Below, in pieces: positions 52,416 to 64,000 of a stretch of DNA of 64,000 nucleotides. Positions within the stretch are counted from its first letter, which is position 1. Each line of letters starts with the position of its first letter. Location: positions 3,834,001 through 3,898,000 of the forward strand of contig NZ_CP061080.1 of the NCBI RefSeq assembly GCF_014495845.1, given 5' to 3'. This DNA is from Aquibium microcysteis. Its GTDB lineage: Bacteria; Pseudomonadota; Alphaproteobacteria; Rhizobiales; Rhizobiaceae. Made by a program: the position numbers and the translations under genes. The notes under the pieces are model-generated. The model did no database searches, was not told where the DNA came from, and worked only from the letters and a program-made list of their open reading frames with translations.

Positions 52416-52967
52416 TCAGGCAGCTTCTTCAGGCTGCGGTTGGCCGACCGTGTGGTAGCCGCGCCGATAGTAGATCAGCGCCGGGTCCTCGCCGCCCTCG
52501 CGCACGTCGAGCACGGTGCAGAACAGCACCTGATGGGTGCCCACGTCGACGCTGCTGGCGACGATGCAGTCGAAGGAGACGATCGCACCTTCGAGGATCG
52601 GCGCGCCGGAGACGCCGGTGGTCCACCTGGCGGCCGCGAAACGCTCCTCGACCGGCGTCTTGCCGCCGAACAGGCCCGACAGCGCCTCCTGGCCGCCGCG
52701 CAGCGTGTTCACGCAGACCGCCTGGTTGCGCGAGAAGGCCGGATAGACCGAGGCCGACCGGTTGAGGCAGACGAGCAGCGTCGGCGGCGCGTCGGTGACG
52801 CTGGTCACCGCCGAGGCCGCGAAGCCGGCCTTGCCGCCCGGCCCGTCGGTGGTGATGATGTTCACCGCCGCGCCGAGCCGCGCCATCGCGTTGCGGAACG
52901 CGGCCGCGTCGATCCCCGGGGTCGTCGTCTCGAGCGACTTCGGATCGGGCATTGAGTTCATGGTCAT
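52416..52967 (-). CDS. rutF: Flavin reductase, RutF-like
   Basis: 183 aa. A single flavin reductase-like domain: [45 protein letters not shown], and the C-terminal [14 protein letters not shown] and YYRRGYHTV. It reduces FMN with NADH and supplies FMNH2 to a two-component monooxygenase. The RutA gene at 61081 is the obvious partner in this window. Last gene of the minus-strand arm, 25 bp after the amidase gene. ATG 52967 or 52961 are both possible. Confidence 0.87.
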
Positions 52968-52992
52968 GTCCTTCAGTCCACAGGTGAGAGAT

Positions 52993-54426
52993 TCAGGCCG
53001 CCGGCCGCAGCGTCAGCGGGCGCGCGAAGCTGCCGAGCGCCAGCGCGGTTTCGAGCCTTGCCGCCACGGATGCGGCGAGGTCCTCCCGCCAGGGCGCGGC
53101 GACGATCTGCAGCCCGACCGGCAGGCCGCCGGCGCTGCGCCCGCCGGGCAGCGTCACCACCGGCAGGCCGAGATAGGAGAAGGGGCGCGTGAAGCTCGTC
53201 ATCGCCGAGACCACCGCGTTCATGCGCGGATCGTCGCCGACGTCGACCTCGGCCGACAGCGGCGGCAGGAAGGGCATCGCCGGCACCACCAGCACGTCGC
53301 AGCGCGAGAAGACGGTGTCGATGAACTCGGACAGCATCACGGCGCGGATCTGCAGCGCCCGCACGTAGAGCGGCGCGGGAATGGCGAGCGCCTGCGCGAG
53401 CCGCATGCGCGGCTGCGGGCCGTAATCCTGCGGCCGGTCGCGCAGCCAGTCGAAATGCACGGCGGCGGCTTCCGACATGGCCACCACGTTGGCGAGTTCG
53501 GCGACCGCCGAGAGGTCCGGCATCCCGACCGGCGCGACGGTGGCGGCGAGCGGCGAAAGCACCCGCGCGGCATCCGCGATGGCCGCGGCGACCTCCGGCG
53601 CGAGGCCTTCGGCGAACATGCCTCCGCCGATGCCGATGTGCAGGTCCGACAAATCCTCGCGCAGCGCGCCGAGCGGGGCCGCATCCATGCAGGTCGGGTC
53701 GAGGCCGTCGGGTCCGGCGATCAGGCGCAGCACCAGCCAGGCGTCCGCCACCGAGGCGGCGAGCGGGCCGATGCAGTCCTGGCTGAAGGAGAGCGGCATC
53801 GCGCCATGCCGGCTGACGCGCCCTTGCGTGGCCTTGATGCCGACGACGCCGCAGCAGGCGGCGGGTAGGCGGATCGAGCCGCCGGTGTCGGAGCCGAGCG
53901 CGGCGCGCACGATGCCCGCGCCGACGGCGGCACCCGACCCGCTCGACGAGCCGCCGGTCACGCGCTCGGGATCGGCGGGGTTGCAGGCTCGGCCATGATG
54001 GGCGTTGAGGCCGGTCGGTCCCATGGCGAATTCCGACATGTTGAGCCGGCCGATGCTGATGGCTCCGGCCGCCTCCAGCCGCGTCATGGCGGTCGAGGTG
54101 GTCGACGCGACATGTCCGGTGCGGATCGCCGAGCCGCAGCCGGTGATCCGGCCGGCGCGGTCGTACATGTCCTTGTGGGCGAACGGCACGCCGTGCAGGG
54201 CGCCGAGCGGCCGGCCGGCGGCCACGGCCTCGTCGGCCACCTGCGCGGCGGCGCGTGCCGCCTCCGCCTCGATGGCGATGAAGGCGTTGAGCGCGGGCTG
54301 CAGCGCTTGCGCGCGCGCCAGCGCGGCCTGCGTCAGTTCGACCGACGAGATGCGGCGCTCGCGGATCGCGGCGGTGGCCTCGGCGAGGCCCGCGGGTTCG
54401 CCCGGGGCGACGGCGGCGGCGGTCAT
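52993..54426 (-). CDS. Amidase signature family enzyme
   Basis: 477 aa, full length. The Ser-cisSer-Lys triad is K85 ([12 protein letters not shown]), S161 in [12 protein letters not shown], and S184 in [12 protein letters not shown]. The C-terminus [20 protein letters not shown] is also typical. It hydrolyses a carboxamide or ureido bond in the cytoplasm; the specificity is not evident. The start shares ATGA with the small gene upstream. It lies in one operon with the Rbs-type importer and rutF, so it probably acts in the same catabolic route as RutA. Confidence 0.92.
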
Positions 54427-54623
54427 GGCTTCGCCCGCTCCCGCATCGCGGCGACCCAGTGCGCCGGCTCGACGGCGAAGAGGGGATTGTCGCTCCCCGC
54501 GCGCCAGCCGCCGATCCGGTGCGCGGCGCGCTCGGCCTGGCCGGCCATGGCGCCCTCTTCGGCCGGGTTGGGATCGCGGCCGAGATGCAGCCGGCAGATG
54601 GCGGTCCAGATGTCGGGTGTCAT
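54423..54623 (-). CDS. Small protein preceding the amidase, unknown function
   Basis: 66 aa: begins MTPDIWTAICRLHLGRDPNP, ends [17 protein letters not shown]. Its stop overlaps the amidase start (ATGA). Small proteins in this position (GatC, AtzG) can be subunits of amidases, but the sequence does not clearly match those families. It starts 11 nt after the permease stop, within the operon. Real by context, unassigned by sequence. Confidence 0.6.
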   Translation of the reverse strand: MTPDIWTAICRLHLGRDPNPAEEGAMAGQAERAAHRIGGWRAGSDNPLFAVEPAHWVAAMRERAKP

Positions 54624-54634
54624 GGCGCTGCGCC

Positions 54635-55651
54635 TCAGCTGAAGTCCTGCGGCTGGCGGTTGCGCACCAGCTGCGAGAGGGCCACCGCGATCACCAGCGC
54701 GCCACCGTAGAAGAGGTTCTGCACATAGGCGTCGGCGCCCATCATGGTGAGCCCGGTGATGCCGGTGACGAGGAAATAGACCGCGATCACCGCGCCGAAG
54801 GCGTTGAAGCGCCCCGGCGATATGGTCGTGGCGCCGAGGAAGGCGGCGGCAAAAGCCGGCAGAAGGAGGCTCAGCCCCGACAGCGGGTCGGCCGAGCCGG
54901 TCATGCCGGCATACATGACGCCCGCCAGCGCCGCGATCACGCCGGACACGACGAAGGAGACGGCACGCACGCGGTCGACGTCGATGCCGCTCAGCCGCGA
55001 CACCTCGCGCCCGCGCCCGACGAAGAGCAGCTTGCGACCGGGAATGGTGAATTCGAGCACGTACCAGATCGCGGCAGCCAGGATCAGGGCGTAGAAAAAG
55101 GCGAGCGGGATGCCGAACAGGCGGTAGATGATGACCCACGAGACGAGGTCCATCGAGACGCCCGAGATCGTCTGCGAGGCGCTGAGCCACAGCACCATGC
55201 CGTTGACGAAGGTGCCGATGCCGAGCGTCACGATCAGCGAGTGGATGCGGAAACAGAGCACGAAGAAGGCGTTGACGGCGCCGATCACCGCGCCGGCGAA
55301 CAGCGCGATGACGATCACCGGCACGATGGGCATCCCCTCGCGCACGTTGAGCACGGCGATCAGCATCGAACTCATGGTCAGGATCGAGGCGCCCGACAGG
55401 TCGAAGTCGCCCGAGGTGAGCGGCACGACCAGCGCCAGCGTGAGCATGACGAGCACGGCCTGCGAGCCGAACATGGTGGAGAAGTTGCGCCAGCTCAGGA
55501 AGGAGTCCGGCATCAGGATGCCGAAGATGACGACGAGCAGCAGCCAGGCCCCGACGAGGGCGAAACGCTCGGTCTCCTTCTTCCAGTTGAAGGCGCGCCG
55601 GGACGCGGTGCCGGCCAAGGGCTTGTCCGTGGGAAGATCGATCGACGTCAT
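54635..55651 (-). CDS. Rbs-type ABC importer permease
   Basis: 338 aa with about nine transmembrane helices. VPLTSGDFDLSGASILTMSS and AVIGAVNAFFVLCFRIHSLIVTLG are typical of RbsC/BPD_transp_2 permeases, and FVVSGVIAALAGVMYAGMTG appears near the end. ATG 55651 overlaps the ATPase stop (ATGA). Transporters of this class carry sugars, nucleosides or related polar compounds. Confidence 0.9.
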   Translation of the reverse strand: MTSIDLPTDKPLAGTASRRAFNWKKETERFALVGAWLLLVVIFGILMPDSFLSWRNFSTMFGSQAVLVMLTLALVVPLTSGDFDLSGASILTMSSMLIAVLNVREGMPIVPVIVIALFAGAVIGAVNAFFVLCFRIHSLIVTLGIGTFVNGMVLWLSASQTISGVSMDLVSWVIIYRLFGIPLAFFYALILAAAIWYVLEFTIPGRKLLFVGRGREVSRLSGIDVDRVRAVSFVVSGVIAALAGVMYAGMTGSADPLSGLSLLLPAFAAAFLGATTISPGRFNAFGAVIAVYFLVTGITGLTMMGADAYVQNLFYGGALVIAVALSQLVRNRQPQDFS

Positions 55652-57201
55652 TCGGCGGCCTCCGTGAGAGGGGCTTCGCTGTTGAAGCAGGCTTCGGCGA
55701 TCGCCTTGCGGGTGATCGCGTCGCCCGACAGTTCCGCCACCGGGCGTCCGCGGGCGAAGACGATGATGCGGTCGCAGATCTGCTCCAGCTGTTCGTTGTC
55801 GGTCGAGGCGCAGAGGATCGCCGTGCCCTGCGCGGCGGCCTTGTCCAGCGCCTTGAAGATCTGCTGGCGCGCCCCGTAGTCGACGCCCTGGGTCGGCTCG
55901 TCGAGCAGCAGCAGCTTCGGCCCGAGCTGCAGCCATTTCGCCAGCAGCACCTTCTGCTGGTTGCCGCCCGACAGCGCGCCGAGCGGCAGGCCGGGGTCGA
56001 GCGGGCGCACGTCGTGCTCCCGCGACAGGCGCAGCGCCTCGCGGCCCATGCCGCGACGGTCGAGTCCCAGAGAAGAGAGATGCGCGGGCAGCACGGGCAG
56101 CGTGATGTTGTCGGTGACGTCGAGCGTGCCGACGCCGGCCGCGCCCAGCCGGTCGCCCGGCAGGAAGGCGATGCCGAGGCCCTGCGCCGTGTGAGGCGTC
56201 ATGCGCGCCAGGTTGGCCGTAGCCCCGCCGACTGAGATCGTGCCGACGCCGCGCCGGGCGCCGTAGAGGAGATAGGGCACCGCCGCGAAGCCGGAGCCGA
56301 TGAGGCCTGTGACGCCGAGCGTCTCGCCCTCGCGGATCGTCAGATCGAAGGGAGGGTGACGCCCGTCCGACAGCCCACGCACCTCGACCGCCGCGGCGGC
56401 CCGGCCCTCGGCCATCCGCGCCTTGGCGAAGGCGTCGACGCGCAGGCCGACGATCGTGTCGAGGATGGTCTGGCGCTGCGTGGTGCCGGTGTCGAGGACG
56501 TCGACCAGTTCGCCGTCGCGCAGGATCGCGACGCGGTCGGTGATGTCGAGCACCTCGTCGATGTCGTGGGTGACGATGATGACCGAGGCGCCGGTCTTCA
56601 CGATCGAGCGGATCAGCGAAAACAGGCGCTGGACGTCGGCCGCGGGCAGGAAGGGCGTCGGCTCGTCGAGGATCAGGATGCCCTCGCCGCCATGGCCGGC
56701 ATCGGACGCACGCAGATCCTCGAAGGCGCGGATGATGGCCACGAAGGCGCGCTCGACGGGCGGCAGGTTGGCGACAGTCTCGAAGGGATCGATGGACAGG
56801 CCGAACTCGGCGAAGAGTTTCGCCACCCGCGCGCCTTCCTTGCGCCAGGAGACGAACCAGGGCGTCTTCTGCCCGAGCGCCGCCACGCGCATGTTCTCCA
56901 CGACCGTCAGCGAGGGTACGAGGCCGAGATGCTGGTGGACGAAGGCCACGCCGCGCCGCTTGATGTCCACCGGATCGAGCGGCAGGGGCATGGGGCGCCC
57001 CCACAACACGATCTGCGACCCCGGCTCGGGCTGGTGAAAACCGGCGAGCACCTTGATCATGGTGGACTTGCCCGAGCCGTTCTGCCCGAGCAGGCCGAAG
57101 ACCTCGCCGCGGCGGACCGACAGCGACACGCCCTTCAGCGCGTAGTGGCTGCCGAACCGCATCCGGATGTCGTTCATGTCCAGCACGGCGTTCCGGGTCA
57201 T
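55648..57201 (-). CDS. Rbs-type ABC importer dual ATPase
   Basis: 517 aa with two ATP-binding domains. NBD1 has Walker A GQNGSGKST and Walker B ILILDEPTPFLP, but its signature position reads ANLPPVERAFVAIIRA instead of LSGGQ. NBD2 has a degenerate Walker A (GLIGSGFAAVP) and a normal signature LSGGNQQKVLLAKW with Walker B LLLLDEPTQGVD. As in RbsA only one composite site may be fully active, here with an extra change in NBD1. Confidence 0.9.
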   Translation of the reverse strand: MTRNAVLDMNDIRMRFGSHYALKGVSLSVRRGEVFGLLGQNGSGKSTMIKVLAGFHQPEPGSQIVLWGRPMPLPLDPVDIKRRGVAFVHQHLGLVPSLTVVENMRVAALGQKTPWFVSWRKEGARVAKLFAEFGLSIDPFETVANLPPVERAFVAIIRAFEDLRASDAGHGGEGILILDEPTPFLPAADVQRLFSLIRSIVKTGASVIIVTHDIDEVLDITDRVAILRDGELVDVLDTGTTQRQTILDTIVGLRVDAFAKARMAEGRAAAAVEVRGLSDGRHPPFDLTIREGETLGVTGLIGSGFAAVPYLLYGARRGVGTISVGGATANLARMTPHTAQGLGIAFLPGDRLGAAGVGTLDVTDNITLPVLPAHLSSLGLDRRGMGREALRLSREHDVRPLDPGLPLGALSGGNQQKVLLAKWLQLGPKLLLLDEPTQGVDYGARQQIFKALDKAAAQGTAILCASTDNEQLEQICDRIIVFARGRPVAELSGDAITRKAIAEACFNSEAPLTEAAE

Positions 57202-57244
57202 GGTCTCGCTTTCCGGAAAGGGACCGTTCGGGGTGTTGCCGCGG

Positions 57245-58345
57245 CTACTGCAGCTTCCAGAGCTTGCGGAAACCGTCGAGATGCGCGTCGCCGTAGCCGT
57301 CGTTGAAGTTGGCGGGCACCCCGGCGGTCTCGACGTTGCGCTCGTCGAAGATCAGCAGCGGCACGTTCATCTTCGCCGCTGAAGGCAGCCCGCACATCAT
57401 GCGCATGATGTTGTCGATGGCGGCATAGCCGGCCCAGCCGAGGCTTTCGCCGATGTCCATCTGCACCTGGCCGTCGCGCACCATGTCGAGCACGAAGGGC
57501 GTGCCGTTAAAGCTCGCGAGCTTGACCGCCTCTTCCGAGCCGGTGATGCGCAACGCCGGGATGACGAACTGCGACATGGAATCGTAGATCGGCAGGATGT
57601 AGTTGATGCCGGGATCGGCGAGCAGCGCCGACTGGACGCCGGGCTGGATCTTGGTCGCCCATTCGGAGACCGGCACGTCGAGATGCTTCTGTTTGCAGTC
57701 CGGGCAGAGTTCCGTGAGCTTCTTCTGGATCGCCTCGACGAAGGGGATCGACGGCAGCACGTCCGAAGAGCCGATGATCAGCACGTTCGGCTTGCCGTCG
57801 GTCTTGGCGAAGGCCCAGGCGGCCAGCAGTTCACCGGCACCGGTAAAGTCGACCTTGGCCGAATAGTCGACGGCGGCGATCTGCTCCTGCGTGACGTCGT
57901 AGAGATGCGTCGTGGTGACCTTCAGGCCAGCGTCGCGCGCTTCCTTCAGCTGCGGCCCGAGCCATTCCGGGTTGAGCCCGCCGGCGATGTCGACCACGTC
58001 GTATTTCTGGCTGATCGCCTGGGAGACGCCCTGGATCCACTGGTCGACCTTCAGCTGGTTGTCCCAGGTCGTATAGGTGAAGCCCACTTCCGCTGCCGCG
58101 GAGGCCATCGCCTTCTGCAGTTCCACGTTGAACGGGATGGTCATGGAGATCGGGATCGACAGGACCTTCTTGCCGGCCATGCAGGCCTTGGCGTCGAAGG
58201 CATCCCCCGGCGCCTCGAAGGCCGGCATCCTCTCGTGTTCGGCGATGAGCGCCAGCGCATCCGCCATCGGATCGGCAAGGGCCGGTACGGCCGGAACGAC
58301 TGCCCCCGCCAGGGCGAAGGCCGCATGGAAGACAAACGAACGCAT
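57245..58345 (-). CDS. Periplasmic sugar/nucleoside-type binding protein (RbsB-like)
   Basis: 366 aa from ATG 58345 (MRSFVFHAAFALAGA). The signal peptide ends ALADP at about 25. The mature Peripla_BP_4 domain shows LSIPISMTIPFNVELQKAMA, YDVVDIAGGLNPEWLGPQLK and NYILPIYDSMSQFVIPAL. It binds the substrate for the Rbs-type importer encoded next. First gene of the minus-strand arm; its promoter (58413-58442) carries the GTACGTAC palindrome. Confidence 0.9.
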   Translation of the reverse strand: MRSFVFHAAFALAGAVVPAVPALADPMADALALIAEHERMPAFEAPGDAFDAKACMAGKKVLSIPISMTIPFNVELQKAMASAAAEVGFTYTTWDNQLKVDQWIQGVSQAISQKYDVVDIAGGLNPEWLGPQLKEARDAGLKVTTTHLYDVTQEQIAAVDYSAKVDFTGAGELLAAWAFAKTDGKPNVLIIGSSDVLPSIPFVEAIQKKLTELCPDCKQKHLDVPVSEWATKIQPGVQSALLADPGINYILPIYDSMSQFVIPALRITGSEEAVKLASFNGTPFVLDMVRDGQVQMDIGESLGWAGYAAIDNIMRMMCGLPSAAKMNVPLLIFDERNVETAGVPANFNDGYGDAHLDGFRKLWKLQ

Positions 58346-58412
58346 GAGTATTCCCCTGTTCCCCGCCCCTGATCGGGCTGTTGTACGGCTGTAGTGCAAC
58401 GTGATGTCTGAC

Positions 58413-58442
58413 AATGTACGTACATAAACCGCAACGAGTCAA
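58413..58442 (-). promoter_or_regulatory. Promoter of the Rbs-type/amidase/rutF operon with GTACGTAC operator
   Basis: On the minus strand TTGACT (58442-58437) is separated by 18 bp from TACATT (58418-58413), a good sigma70 promoter. The perfect 12-bp palindrome ATGTACGTACAT (58414-58425) covers the -10. The same core lies over the -10 of the MFS gene and, with three mismatches, of rutA. HutC-type GntR regulators bind such palindromes, so the protein encoded at 59999 is the likely repressor. Confidence 0.65.
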
Positions 58443-58602
58443 CGTGATCTGAATGCAATTTTTGCACTGCACAAATCACGGGCAGATGCCGTAAGGCAGG
58501 CTCAAGATGCGGGCTACGTCGAAGATACGGACGACAACGGAGAGCACAAGAGACGCACGGCTACCGCAGCGCAGCATCGGTCGCCGGATGCTTTGTACGG
58601 AC

Positions 58603-59844
58603 TTATTCCTGCAGGGACGACATCCGGCGACGGCACTGCCGGAAATGCGCCGCAAAGCCGATCGCCATGCCCGCGAAGCCGAAGAGCGAGAAGACGAGGA
58701 AGCTTGCGCCATAATGGTCGAGGAGCGTGTAGAGGGTCGCGAAGCTGGACGGTCCCACGATGACGCCCAGAAAGGTGTAGACCAGCGCGGCGCCCGTGAT
58801 GGCGCCGACGCCGGAGGCCGGCGCGGCATTGGCGAGCTCCCCCAGCAACACGCCGTTCCAGCCGATGCAGACGAAGCCGATCAGCAGGAAAAGCGCGGCC
58901 TGAAGCGACGCAGGCATTGCGCCGAGCCAGTAGAGCGATGCGCAGCCCGCACCACCGATCAGGCCGAGCAGCCCGAGCGTCAGGAAGCCGCCGCCGATCC
59001 TGTTCGCGACGCCGCCCCAGAAGATGCGGCCGCAGGCGCCGGCGAACTGCATCACGGCGGCGAGCGACCCGGCGGCCAGCACCGGCCAGCCGCTGTCATG
59101 GACCAGGGTCACCACGGCGAAGGCCGAGATGGACAGCTGCAGAGCGGAATAGACAAAGCCGAGCAGACTGAGCGCGCGCAGGCCCGGATCGCGCCAGATC
59201 AGCCTCTGCTCGGCGAGCAGGCCCCTGCCCCACTCCCCCGCGCCGGCCGCCAGCGGCTCGGCGGCTGTGAGCGTGAAGCAGAGCACCAGCACGAAGGCAG
59301 GCGCCGCGGCACCGATCATGAGCGCGGCGTGCCAGCCCAGGAGGCTGGTCAGGAAGGGCAGCGCGAAGCTGGCGAGGATGCCGCCGAGCGGCACGCCGCT
59401 CTGCTTGATCGAGAAAACGATGTTGCGCCGCTCCGGTGGCGTGACGCGGCTGAGCAATTCCGACGCCGCCGGATTGTTGAGGCCGTAACCGACGCCGATC
59501 AGAAGCGACGCGAGAACGATGACGGGGAAGCGTCCGGTCGCGATGCCGAGGAAACCGAGGATGAAGCAGACGAGCGCCATCTGCTCCACCCGCACCGGCC
59601 CGTGCCGCCGCACGAGGCCGCCGGCGACCGCCGACGCGATCATGCCGGAGGTGTAGATCAGGCTGATCTGGTAGCCGATCCAGTGCGCGCCGACGCCGAG
59701 ATCCCCGGCGACGGCCGGCGCGATGGCAGTCAGCGCGAGCACGCTCGCGGTGGCCGCGACCTGAACGAGAGTCGCAGCTCCCAGCACCGGCAGAAGCCGT
59801 GACGCGCGCGCACTGTCCGCGCTGCCGGCGGTGATTTCGGCCAT
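58603..59844 (-). CDS. Major facilitator superfamily transporter
   Basis: 413 aa with 12 predicted transmembrane helices. Signature features are GGLVRRHGPVRVEQ in the loop after TM2, the conserved motif LLIGVGYGLNNPAASELLSR, and FSIKQSGVPLGGILASFALP. It is a secondary carrier, probably an uptake or export route for the substrate or an intermediate of the RutA island. Monocistronic; its promoter has the GTACGTAC palindrome. Confidence 0.9.
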   Translation of the reverse strand: MAEITAGSADSARASRLLPVLGAATLVQVAATASVLALTAIAPAVAGDLGVGAHWIGYQISLIYTSGMIASAVAGGLVRRHGPVRVEQMALVCFILGFLGIATGRFPVIVLASLLIGVGYGLNNPAASELLSRVTPPERRNIVFSIKQSGVPLGGILASFALPFLTSLLGWHAALMIGAAAPAFVLVLCFTLTAAEPLAAGAGEWGRGLLAEQRLIWRDPGLRALSLLGFVYSALQLSISAFAVVTLVHDSGWPVLAAGSLAAVMQFAGACGRIFWGGVANRIGGGFLTLGLLGLIGGAGCASLYWLGAMPASLQAALFLLIGFVCIGWNGVLLGELANAAPASGVGAITGAALVYTFLGVIVGPSSFATLYTLLDHYGASFLVFSLFGFAGMAIGFAAHFRQCRRRMSSLQE

Positions 59845-59868
59845 GAGAAGAGTGCCTGCAAACCATGT

Positions 59869-59896
59869 CTTCGGTATAAGTACGTACTAACCGAAG
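59869..59896 (-). promoter_or_regulatory. Operator/promoter of the MFS gene
   Basis: AGTACGTACT (59879-59888) is a perfect 10-bp palindrome, flanked by CTTCGGT (59869-59875) and its complement ACCGAAG (59890-59896). On the minus strand TACTTA would be the -10, with TTGCGG as -35 at 17-bp spacing. The layout matches the promoter at 58413, supporting shared control by the GntR-type regulator. Confidence 0.6.
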
Positions 59897-59998
59897 GGGC
59901 CGCAAACTGCAACAGGGCCGATCGAAACGGACACTCGTACCCATTTTGAATTGCGCCGGCCCCCGAAAGCTGGTCAACACGTCAGCCGGGAGGACGGA

Positions 59999-60799
59999 AT
60001 GACGGAAGCGGAGACGTCGGCGGCGCAAGCCCATGACAGCGAACCGCGCGACGATGGCAGCTGGAAGCCGGAGGTCACCACGGCTCCGCTCTACCTCCAG
60101 GTCGCGCATCATCTGGAAGCGCGCATTGCCAGCGGCGAGTTCGGCATCGGCTCGCTGCTGCCCACCGAGAACGACCTGGCGGTATCGCTGGGCGTCAGCC
60201 GGCAGACGGTACGTCAGGCGATCGGCCTCCTGCGCAGCCGCGGCCGCCTGTCGGCCCGCAAGGGCGTCGGCACGCGCGTCGAGGCGGGCGCCGACCTCGG
60301 AAGCAAGCGTTTCATCGCTCATTCCCGATCGGAGCTGTTCGAGATCGCCAGCGAGACGGAGCTCGTTTTCTCGAGCAAGCAGGAGATCTCCGCGCAGGGG
60401 AAGCTTGCCGTGGAGCTCGGCTGCCGGCCCGGCCGGCGCTTTCTTCACATGACCGGCGTCCGTTACCCACCGACCCGGCAGCGCGCCTTCTCCTGGAACG
60501 AGGTCTATGTCGACGCCCGTCTCGCACCGGCCGTCAGGAACCTCTCGGTCGCCAAGTCGGCGATCTTCCACCTGATCGAGGAATACACTGGCGAGAAGAT
60601 CCAGGAGATCCAGCAGGACATCAGACCGGTGGCGATGACGGGTCATGTCGCCGCAGCGCTCGGCTGCGCCGACGGCGATCTCGCACTGCAGGTCACGCGC
60701 CGCTACTACGGCTCCGGGCGCAGGCTGATCGAATACGCCTTCCAGATTCTCCCGGCCGACCGCTTCACCTACACCACGACGCTTCGCGCCGGGACCTGA
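59999..60799 (+). CDS. GntR family regulator, HutC/UTRA type
   Basis: 266 aa. An N-terminal GntR winged helix ([40 protein letters not shown]) and a C-terminal UTRA ligand domain ([60 protein letters not shown]). ATG 59999 follows GGGAGGAC; this choice drops 16 residues of an upstream frame. It stands between the two arms of the RutA island and probably represses both by binding GTACGTAC-type palindromes, with release by a pathway compound. Confidence 0.9.
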
Positions 60800-60933
60800 C
60801 CGGCCGACCATCCCGGGCGCCCGCCGCAGCCACGGCCGGCGACTCCATTCCGCCGGTCGCCTCGCGAGCCCGGCGCCGGCACGCATCGTCCGGGGCTCTC
60901 CGTCACCCCTCCGCCCACGGCTTCAGCAACCCG

Positions 60934-61035
60934 TTGTGCATCGCACAAGCGACTGCCCATTTTGCAGGCACGGCACAAAATTACGTCAGATTTCGTCTGG
61001 ACTCGCGGAGCGAGATTTGCATTAGTGCGTACATA
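60934..61035 (+). promoter_or_regulatory. Upstream regulatory region of rutA
   Basis: The 281-bp gap 60800-61080 holds no gene. It contains TTGTGC-ATC-GCACAA (60934-60948), a perfect 6-bp inverted repeat, then TTTGCA...GCACAAAA (60961-60980), whose halves also occur at 58461-58475 upstream of the Rbs-type operon. TAGTGCGTACAT (61023-61034) matches 9 of 12 bases of the 58414 palindrome and overlaps TACATA (61030-61035), a plausible -10 for rutA. The -35 is poor, which would suit an activator or a repressed weak promoter. Confidence 0.5.
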
Positions 61036-61080
61036 TTGGCTTTCGCACCACCGCCCGCACGAGACCAAGGGGAACTGACC

Positions 61081-62163
<1,083 letters not shown>

Positions 62164-62201
62164 GCCAGCGCCGAAGCGAACCCAGCTGAAGCGAGGTCGG
62201 C

Positions 62202-63746
62202 ATGACCGCTATGCGTCCGCTGCCCGGGGTCGAGCGGTTCGAGCCGCTCGACCTCGTGGACCCGACGCTGGCGGACAGGCCGTATCGCTGCGATCCCGCA
62301 CCGGACGGTCGTCCCTCCGCGTCCGTCGACCTGCCGCCGGCACCGCTCGCGGTGCCGGCGCGCATGGCAGGCTGCGCCGACCTGCTGGCCGCCTATGCTT
62401 CCGGCACGCTGACGCCCGCCGCCGTGCTGTCCGACCTCGCCGCCGCCGCCGCGGTCGATCCGTCCGGCGCCGAGGCGATCCTCTGCGTGGCCCCCGATGC
62501 GGCGGATCTGGCGCGCGACAGCGAGCGACGCTGGCGCGAGGGCCGGCCGCGGCCACTCGAGGGGCTGCCCTTCGGGATCAAGGACATCGTCGACGTCGCC
62601 GGGGCGAAGGTCACTTCGGGCTCCCTCTTCACCGGCGAGCGCATCGCCGCACAGGATGCCGACGTCGTGGCGCGGCTGCGCGCCGCCGGCGCGATCCCCT
62701 ATGCGATGACTGCGACGACCGAATTCGCCTGCGGCTCGCCCCACAATCCGCGCCACGGCACCGTCACCAACCCGTGGGACGCCTCCCGCTGGACCGGCGG
62801 ATCGTCGACCGGCTCGGGCGCGGCGCTGGCGGCACGGCTGGTGCCCTTTGCCCTTGGCACCGATACCGGCGGATCGATCCGGGTGCCGTCCTGCTGGTGC
62901 GGCACGACCGGCCTGAAGCCCTCGCGCGAACGGGTCTCGCGCACTGGCGTGGCGCCGCTGTCCTGGACGCTCGACCATGTCGGGCCGATGACCCGCAGCG
63001 CCCGCGACATCGCGCTCGTGCTGCCGCACATGGTGGCTGCACCCGACGCCACATTCGCCGCGCGCTGCGCGCAACTCGTCACCGACACGCCCGACCTCTC
63101 CGGCCCGCGGATCGGCGTGCCCGCAGACTGGTTCACCGATCTGGTCTCCGCCCCGGTACTCGCGAACTGGCGCGCCGCATTGGACGTCCTGGCGGCGCTC
63201 GGCGCGGAACTCGTGGACCTGCCGCCGGTCGACGTCGCGCCGATGCACGAGGCGGGCTGGACGATCCTTCTCTCCGAACTCGCCGCCCACCACGAGGCCC
63301 GACATCCGCAGGGCCATCTCTTCGACAGGGGGCTGCTCGCCCGGCTCGAGCAGGGGATGCACATCTCCGCCGGCGCCTATGGACGCGCCCTCGCCACCCG
63401 CCGCCGGGCGCAGGAGGCCTTCCTCGCCGCCATGGAGTGGGCGGGCGCCGACCTGATCGCCACGCCCGGCCTCGGCGGCGAGCCCGGCGACCTCGCCACG
63501 CTGACCTTGGACGTCGACGGCGTCGCGCACGGCTTCCAGCAGGTGTTGTCGCGCAACACGATGATCTTCGACCTGACCGGCTTTCCGGCGCTCATGCTGC
63601 CCTCGGGGTTCGGTGCGATGGGTCTGCCGACCGGATTGCAGATCGTCGGACGTCCGGGCGCCGACGCCGTGTGCCTCGCCGCCGGCGTGGCCTTCCAGGC
63701 GGCGACCCCACACCACAAGACGCTGCCGCCGCGGCTCCGGTCATGA
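62202..63746 (+). CDS. Amidase signature family enzyme with extended N-terminus
   Basis: 514 aa. Triad: K127 (PFGIKDIVDVAG), S202 (TGGSSTGSGAAL) and S225 (TDTGGSIRVPS). An N-terminal extension of about 55 residues (MTAMRPLPGVERFEPLDLVD) precedes the fold. TTEFACGSPHNPRHGTVTNP is the loop before the serines. It should hydrolyse an amide or ureido group produced from the ring-opened RutA product, replacing the isochorismatase-like RutB. It starts 38 nt after rutA and overlaps the next amidase gene by ATGA, so the three are one operon. Confidence 0.9.
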   Translation: MTAMRPLPGVERFEPLDLVDPTLADRPYRCDPAPDGRPSASVDLPPAPLAVPARMAGCADLLAAYASGTLTPAAVLSDLAAAAAVDPSGAEAILCVAPDAADLARDSERRWREGRPRPLEGLPFGIKDIVDVAGAKVTSGSLFTGERIAAQDADVVARLRAAGAIPYAMTATTEFACGSPHNPRHGTVTNPWDASRWTGGSSTGSGAALAARLVPFALGTDTGGSIRVPSCWCGTTGLKPSRERVSRTGVAPLSWTLDHVGPMTRSARDIALVLPHMVAAPDATFAARCAQLVTDTPDLSGPRIGVPADWFTDLVSAPVLANWRAALDVLAALGAELVDLPPVDVAPMHEAGWTILLSELAAHHEARHPQGHLFDRGLLARLEQGMHISAGAYGRALATRRRAQEAFLAAMEWAGADLIATPGLGGEPGDLATLTLDVDGVAHGFQQVLSRNTMIFDLTGFPALMLPSGFGAMGLPTGLQIVGRPGADAVCLAAGVAFQAATPHHKTLPPRLRS

Positions 63747-64000
63747 TCGAGCCGTTCCGCCTGACCGCCACCGGGGCGCTGGCCCGCCTCGCCGAGGGCA
63801 GCCTGACGTCACGGGCGCTGGTCGAATCCTGCCTCGCCCGGATCGCGGCGCGCGACGGCGACCTGCGCGCCTGGCTGGCGATCAGTGAGGACGCGCTGGA
63901 ACAGGCGGACCGCCTCGACGCGCTTTCCGCCGAAAGGCGCGGCCTGCTGCACGGCCTGCCGGTCGGCGTGAAGGACGTGTTCGACACAGCCGACCTTCCG
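63743..64000 (+). CDS. Amidase signature family enzyme, N-terminal part (cut by window edge)
   Basis: ATG 63743 overlaps the stop of the previous amidase gene (ATGA) and the frame is still open at the window end after 86 codons. Helices EGSLTSRALVESCLARIAAR and LHGLPVGVKDVFDTADLP identify an amidase; K77 is the catalytic lysine. The Ser pair lies beyond the window. Two adjacent amidases suggest sequential hydrolyses or a heteromeric pair. Confidence 0.87.
   Translation, partial: MIEPFRLTATGALARLAEGSLTSRALVESCLARIAARDGDLRAWLAISEDALEQADRLDALSAERRGLLHGLPVGVKDVFDTADLP

Follow-up and report, generated by a model that had tools for sequence, protein, structure and literature searches.

The closest described system to the gene cluster discussed here is the uracil Rut pathway of E. 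coli, encoded by rutABCDEFG with the regulator RutR. According to excerpts of two papers, RutA opens the N3–C4 amide of uracil by flavin-N5 chemistry, for which an intact amide is required (PMC7662398, PMC10005588); the excerpt of the first, a review, names RutA, DszA and HcbA1 as enzymes of flavin-N5 oxygenation. A rutA-family gene lies in a divergent cluster (the island) at the right end of bases 3834001–3898000 of the single-contig, 6.1-Mb genome of Aquibium microcysteis (contig NZ_CP061080.1, C1 in the coordinates below); this whole stretch of 64,000 nucleotides is called the window. The island is real and conserved; its genes appear to be co-regulated, and it is distinct from the Rut operon. 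Judging from its sequence, it is likely to form a single catabolic regulon under GntR control whose substrate is an N-heterocyclic lactam or imide, though not uracil. We also favour, with some reserve, the view that it encodes an undescribed aerobic pathway in which a neofunctionalised RutA opens a common, naturally occurring N-heterocycle other than uracil.

The RutA of the island (360 residues; 61081..62163, plus strand) scores 616.8 bits against the RutA model TIGR03612, whose cut-off is 498.3. RutAs of this kind are referred to as RutA2 or window-type, and those of the RutB-linked type as canonical. The canonical RutAs group in a single clade (support 96/89) in a tree built from 89 sequences after thinning at 90% identity, and RutA2 falls outside that clade; a 99/97 branch sets apart a window-type core, which encloses four fast-evolving second copies, three basal window-type sequences lying outside it. 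The window RutA and 87/87 window-type sequences contain the residues L65, N134, V136, W139 and F224, and N134, W139 and F224 are invariant across both types. The catalytic residues of RutA are thus unchanged in RutA2, which argues for the same flavin-N5 chemistry. Two other positions are type-specific. Residue 305 is Thr in 86/87 window-type sequences and Asn in 43/43 canonical ones. At position 105 the window RutA and 86/87 window-type sequences have Ser, and all 43 canonical sequences counted (17/17 and 26/26) have Thr. Thr105 of RutA coordinates O2, as an excerpt of PMC10005588 describes; its replacement by Ser is a conservative change, and RutA2 lacks the O2-coordinating Thr. One RutB-linked, long-branched sequence with Ser105 (L131) was treated as canonical in the tree and in the neighbour count and left out of the residue counts. 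Most window-type sequences have Met or Leu at residue 226, a position that is not diagnostic because Leu replaces Phe226 in 6/43 canonical RutAs. A canonical rutA-rutB-rutC-rutD set is also found in four of the nine same-family genomes that hold a window-type RutA. RutA2 is probably a paralogue rather than a RutA that has lost its RutB, and the label 'RutA' is probably wrong about its function.

The gene neighbourhoods differ as well. A scan with this RutA gave 349 relatives, and most window-type loci of the neighbour count come from the best 80 of these, so that close relatives are over-represented among them. The count covers 67 window-type and 40 canonical loci (15 + 25), each with 8 kb on both sides; loci with shorter flanks (20/87 window-type, 2/17 and 1/26 canonical) were left out, and seven (L153–L159) were dropped as duplicates of named loci. 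Canonical and window-type rutA differ in that an amidase-signature (AS) gene is encoded no more than 8 kb away in 57/67 window-type loci compared with 1/40 canonical loci (0/15 in the first set, the sole case, L188, being among the 25 further loci), whereas RutB is encoded within that distance in 0/67 and 39/40, respectively. The initial annotation had proposed a survey of this kind, and the co-occurrence of RutA with amidases and without RutB is borne out by it and is not due to chance. RutB was not found at two canonical-type loci, L123, which has short flanks, and L192; at L087 the window-type rutA has a canonical rutB some 9 kb away, past the 8-kb limit and next to a canonical rutA of its own. 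Two further companions are an isochorismatase-superfamily hydrolase (ISOCH), encoded within 8 kb in 34/67 window-type and 0/40 canonical loci, and a methylisocitrate-lyase-like protein (PEPM), within 8 kb in 14/67 window-type loci.

A putative operator ties the arms of the island together. The 14-bp motif TNWGTNCGNACWNA was derived from k-mers common to both arms of these loci and afterwards tested on the genome; an exact-palindrome search did not recover it. It has six sites in 6.1 Mb, three of them in the island, where 0.04 would be expected by chance in the whole window, and the pattern read backwards has one site. The motif search places TTTGTACGGACTTA at 58592..58605, TAAGTACGTACTAA at 59877..59890, between the genes for a carrier of the major facilitator superfamily (MFS) and the GntR regulator, and TTAGTGCGTACATA at 61022..61035, before rutA. 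A looser form, AATGTACGTACATA, lies at 58413..58426, 68 bp ahead of where the solute-binding protein (SBP) gene is inferred to start, and occurs in the same space in relatives. Operator-like sites thus mark all three transcription units of the island. In 31 loci titled mostly Rhizobium and kin (L019–L049), each of the three promoter spaces holds at least one looser-form site in 29; two sites occur in L026, which has no SBP-ABC-AS3-rutF arm, and no site in L045. A site also stands just before the ISOCH gene in L057 (inferred start), L075, L077 and L086. The other three genomic sites of TNWGTNCGNACWNA adjoin genes with no visible link to the island, and were judged to be chance occurrences rather than members of the regulon. 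The 14-bp sites are those that the GntR protein of the island would be predicted to bind.

The minus-strand arm begins at the left with a rutF-like FMN reductase gene (183 residues, 52416..52967), followed by AS3, an AtzE-like AS hydrolase (477 residues, 52993..54426), and a small gene of 66 residues (54423..54623) that has an ATGA overlap with AS3 and separates it from the ABC permease (338 residues, 54635..55651; an open frame whose sequence cluster is conserved in 50 loci). Next come an Rbs/Ytf-type two-domain ABC ATPase (517 residues, 55648..57201), whose best NCBIfam match, YtfR, at 311.5 bits is below the cut-off of 850, a periplasmic sugar-type SBP (57245..58345, start inferred; PF13407, 93.6 bits) and the MFS carrier (413 residues, 58603..59844; PF07690, 104.2 bits). 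On the plus strand, a GntR/HutC-type regulator with a UTRA domain (59999..60799, start inferred; PF00392, 68.3 bits, and PF07702, 62.3 bits) precedes rutA. Behind rutA lie AS1, an AS hydrolase with an N-terminal extension, recognised by its motifs and by PF01425 at 289.1 bits (514 residues, 62202..63746), and AS2 (63743..65068), which crosses the window edge at 64000, overlaps the stop codon of AS1 with its start (ATGA) and is named a malonamidase-E2-like amidase from its closest solved structure. The same arm continues with rutE at window-equivalent 65165–65767 (C1:3899165–3899767). Next downstream are ZapA, transketolase and GAPDH-like genes (named by eye), so the operon is taken to be rutA-AS1-AS2-rutE. 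Among L019–L049, rutF, AS3, the ABC ATPase and the SBP gene are each found in 29/31 loci, the MFS and gntR genes in 30/31, AS1 in 29/31, AS2 in 20/31, ISOCH in 26/31, PEPM in 14/31 and rutE in 3/31; rutE lies within 8 kb in 7/87 window-type loci overall.

Profile searches of the genome define which rut genes accompany the island. RutE is present in the operon (NF003768, 299.5 bits, cut-off 152), and the RutF-like protein just misses its cut-off (TIGR03615, 247.1 against 254.75 bits). Genome-wide, nothing exceeds the cut-offs for RutB (TIGR03614, best 123.4 against 377.95 bits), RutC (TIGR03610, best 46.4 against 169.1) or RutD (TIGR03611, best 64.9 against 238.5); no match to RutG (TIGR03616) was found in the genome, a weak test in that 0/14 known control genomes, E. 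coli included, passed the cut-off either. The initial annotation had described rutA and a RutF gene in one divergent cluster with three AS genes, an Rbs-type ABC importer, an MFS carrier and a HutC-type GntR gene, all of which are confirmed, with RutF as a near miss; the 66-residue gene and rutE were absent from it, rutE lying beyond the sequence available to it. Its statement that RutB, RutC, RutD, RutE and RutG are missing stands for the first three and fails for RutE. It had named rutB–E genes past the right edge as evidence against its proposal; rutE was found there and the other rut genes were not. Elsewhere in the genome, the best RutB-family matches lie at about 2.75 Mb (C1:2742000–2760000), beside a BMP-type ABC set and a 610-residue amidase (by eye); read by eye, this region looks like one for biuret or ureide use, and its RutB-family proteins match ISOCH poorly. 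Two adjacent luciferase-like monooxygenase genes at C1:16439–18696 score 248 and 53 bits against the RutA model.

The genome also contains a reductive pyrimidine cluster at about 2.10–2.11 Mb, in which PreA scores 728.8 bits (cut-off 335) and the neighbours, named by eye, are PreT, a dihydropyrimidinase, a carbamoyl-beta-alanine amidohydrolase and a RutR-like TetR regulator. Since this cluster looks complete, uracil probably already has a route in this genome, a reductive one.

Neither the ISOCH nor the PEPM gene of this genome lies within the island; they stand together at 2779748–2781251, 1.1 Mb away. Among 199 same-family genomes (presumably Rhizobiaceae, as seven hold RutAs identical to named Rhizobium/Rhizobiales records), on all of which both counts are judged to have been made, 9 have a window-type RutA and 21 have an ISOCH orthologue (E <= 1e-60). 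The orthologue is present in 9/9 genomes with a window-type RutA as opposed to 12/190 without (p = 2.6e-10), or, by genus, in 6/6 as opposed to 7/103. At L027 and L035 ISOCH, PEPM, AMDase, GntR and MBL genes directly adjoin the RutA island, whereas in this genome they stand alone. The closest solved match of ISOCH is N-carbamoylsarcosine amidohydrolase (26st, 136.1 bits), ahead of 3ot4/3uao, which we take to be maleamate amidohydrolase (125.5 bits), and of RutB (35 bits); on the RutB model TIGR03614 it reaches 44.5 bits, the cut-off being 377.95. PEPM is closest to methylisocitrate lyase (190.5 bits) and scores 260–270 bits against NCBIfam prpB, under the cut-off of 354.4. A PF17645 gene of the AMDase/maleate-isomerase family adjoins the pair. 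Because an ISOCH orthologue accompanies RutA2 in all nine same-family genomes, its claim to the putative RutB-type step is no weaker than that of the amidases.

The three amidases have the Lys-Ser-Ser motif region intact (AS2 and AS3 partly by eye), and none reaches the allophanate-hydrolase cut-off. AS3 is closest among solved structures to biuret hydrolase (6c62, 257 bits) and contains the Lys, GGSSSGSG and GSDTGGSIR motifs, the last found by search and the rest by eye; it stays under the AtzE cut-offs (TIGR02715, 363.3 against 425.75 bits; PRK09201, 367.7 against 461). AS1 is also nearest to biuret hydrolase, more distantly (154 bits), and AS2 to malonamidase E2 (210.6 bits, the best other family giving 141.9). 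From these nearest relatives, amide, ureido or malonamate-like products would be expected. The 66-residue gene, homologues of which occur in the islands of many relatives, is by its position a possible AtzG/GatC-type partner of AS3. The SBP was set aside as a guide to the substrate, its matches being weak (4y9t, 31 bits) and none of its close relatives solved.

Outside Rhizobium and kin, RutA2 is found in loci titled as Rhodobacterales-type genera, where the island occurs in variants, Methylobacterium, Novosphingobium, Acetobacteraceae and Nanopelagicales (Actinobacteria). This spread over several bacterial orders suggests a widespread natural compound. At the thresholds used, 8/67 window-type loci have neither an AS nor an ISOCH gene; five of them are Actinobacteria-type, with an alpha/beta hydrolase and an HMGL-like lyase as neighbours and, by eye, a CoA transferase, a nitrilase-like protein and an ABC importer. 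Two contigs from metagenome-assembled genomes titled Bifidobacterium breve (L076, L078) are possibly mislabelled; their RutA groups with Nanopelagicales. Eight loci (L051, L052, L062, L073, L079, L081, L090, L132) have two or three RutA-family genes each, with diverged second copies, and some such loci contain, by eye, a Pot-type ABC transporter, an asparaginase-like gene or allantoinase/ureidoglycolate-lyase-like genes. In Kaistia (L064) and Acidisoma (L068) a rutA paralogue is accompanied by a COG0523-type GTPase (by eye) and an AS amidase; a hydantoinase/dihydropyrimidinase-like enzyme at L064 scores 302 bits, below cut-off, and its counterpart at L068 is 76% identical. At L045 (Neorhizobium galegae) a second rutA paralogue, together with ISOCH, follows a TRAP-type transporter (by eye), and the matches there include no AS gene.

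In the pathway that we favour, the compound would be imported by the SBP-ABC-permease system and the MFS carrier, and RutF would supply FMNH2. RutA2 would open the ring at an amide bond by flavin-N5-peroxide chemistry to yield a carboxylate in which an amide or ureido group is retained. The remaining C–N bonds would be hydrolysed by ISOCH, encoded elsewhere, together with AS1, AS2 and AS3, the last perhaps with its 66-residue partner. The carbon skeleton would then be finished by PEPM, also encoded elsewhere, and by RutE as a malonic-semialdehyde-type reductase. RutE, where present, would indicate a malonic-semialdehyde-type end product, and PEPM a C–C cleavage. In a more specific version, which is very improbable, the substrate would be a uracil substituted at position 5, for example pseudouridine, a C-nucleoside: a ribose-type importer, ring opening by RutA2 and decarbamoylation by ISOCH would be followed by a retro-aldol reaction in which PEPM splits the sugar from malonic semialdehyde, and RutE would reduce the remainder. 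The three amidases are left unexplained by this scheme.

Which enzyme replaces RutB is a question on which the loci point in two directions. If the amidases do so, AS1, placed directly behind rutA, would hydrolyse the ring-opened ureido or amide acid; AS1 follows rutA in 8/8 Methylobacterium loci, and no ISOCH was called in those stretches, the rest of these genomes not having been searched. The frequency of AS genes near window-type rutA and their intact catalytic motifs are consistent with this. Set against it are the loci without AS1 at which ISOCH lies directly behind rutA2 (L045, L050, L051, L070, L091), and the constant presence of the ISOCH orthologue in the same-family RutA2 genomes, this one included, which leave replacement by the amidases possible but doubtful. 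The initial claim that amidases take the place of RutB–E is not supported, given that RutE is present and ISOCH is a rival RutB-type candidate. Both kinds of enzyme may act, on different bonds. The broader proposal of the initial annotation, of a RutA-based unit that differs from the uracil Rut operon and has a likely N-heterocyclic substrate, is supported by the separate clade, the pocket changes, the operator, the companions and the coexisting rut genes; the narrower substrate that it suggested, nucleoside-like or a cyclic imide, is conceivable.

The substrate itself might still be uracil or thymine, with ISOCH or an amidase standing in for RutB, aminoacrylate decaying without RutC or RutD and RutE reducing the semialdehyde. 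Conserved catalytic residues, the RutF-like and RutE genes and the resemblance of ISOCH to N-carbamoylsarcosine amidohydrolase, a ureido-acid hydrolase, fit such a pathway; it is nevertheless unlikely in view of the reductive cluster with its RutR-like regulator in the same genome (by eye except for PreA), the coexistence of RutA2 with canonical rutABCD sets, the type-specific T105S and N305T, and the extra amidases, lyase and sugar-type importer, which would be superfluous for uracil. A pyridine- or maleimide-type ring with maleamate-like intermediates is a still more improbable substrate. Here ISOCH would be NicF-like, the AMDase/maleate-isomerase-family protein would isomerise and PEPM would cleave an alkylmalate-type acid, in keeping with the 3ot4/3uao match, the PF17645 gene beside ISOCH-PEPM and its relatives in L027 and L035, and the closeness of PEPM to methylisocitrate lyase, albeit below the prpB cut-off. 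However, the AMDase gene stands beside RutA2 in two loci only, RutE is unexplained, and RutA acts on pyrimidines and needs an intact amide according to the excerpt of PMC7662398. Riboflavin or lumichrome catabolism was dropped because no RutA appears in the excerpt of PMC12746152. Just left of the window, C1:3816000–3835500 holds, by eye, genes for a P450, a ferredoxin reductase, an M29-like protein, presumably NicX-like, an alpha/beta hydrolase, a flavin reductase and an AS amidase, as well as a second isochorismatase homologue (41% to ISOCH). Two of its proteins gave no NCBIfam match at 1e-20, and the M29-like one no Pfam match at 1e-5. This region may be a pyridine-type catabolic cluster.

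Several observations weigh against a single regulon for a compound other than uracil. The 47 window-type sequences are not one clade in the free tree, although their monophyly is not rejected (AU test, p 0.176), and Phe226 and Cys225 vary in some canonical RutAs too. With a score above the RutA equivalog cut-off and its catalytic residues intact, RutA2 is compatible with uracil or thymine as substrate. RutE is an occasional island member and so says little about the usual end product, and the Actinobacteria variant has neither AS nor ISOCH genes near RutA2. The ISOCH-PEPM pair at 2.78 Mb lacks the island operator and lies beside another GntR gene, and the p-values for ISOCH overstate independence since the sampled genomes are related.

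No description of an island combining RutA2 with amidases turned up in literature searches limited to an open-access library. All 14 window-type RutAs scored against TIGR03612 pass its cut-off, at about 616–633 bits, so members of this clade are prone to annotation as 'pyrimidine utilization protein A'; with RutB within 8 kb at none of the 67 loci, it is probable that the model over-annotates RutA2, and metabolic models that rest on this label are probably wrong. RutA2, RutF, ISOCH, the three amidases and a regulator with a 14-bp site form a defined set with which a new substrate of flavin-N5 oxygenation might be found.

Compared with the E. coli Rut system, the island shares the RutA family and its catalytic residues, a RutF-like protein, RutE and a predicted O2-dependent cleavage of a ring amide. 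It differs in that its genome has no RutB, RutC or RutD over cut-off (the RutG test being weak), in having GntR for RutR, in its AS, ISOCH and PEPM companions and sugar-type ABC and MFS transporters, and in its RutA, which has T105S and N305T and does not belong to the RutB-linked clade. The reductive pyrimidine pathway (PreTA) likewise ends by hydrolysis of a ureido acid; unlike the island, it occupies a separate locus in this genome and involves no oxygenase. In trigonelline and pyridine pathways a two-component luciferase-like FMN oxygenase opens the N-ring and amide hydrolases follow, but the oxygenase subfamily and the substrates differ from those of the island. Malonamidase E2 of Bradyrhizobium and N-carbamoylsarcosine amidohydrolase are the nearest solved relatives of AS2 and ISOCH, both distant. 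The cyanuric-acid AtzG-AtzE-AtzH system of Pseudomonas sp. ADP resembles the island in that AS3 is AtzE-like with a small overlapping upstream gene, and differs in that AS3 is below the AtzE cut-offs and no AtzD- or AtzH-like gene was noticed. The published account that comes closest to hinting at such an association is an excerpt on atzG-atzE clusters of function unknown in Bordetella and Achromobacter, which include genes annotated as a monooxygenase and an FMN reductase (PMC6219798).

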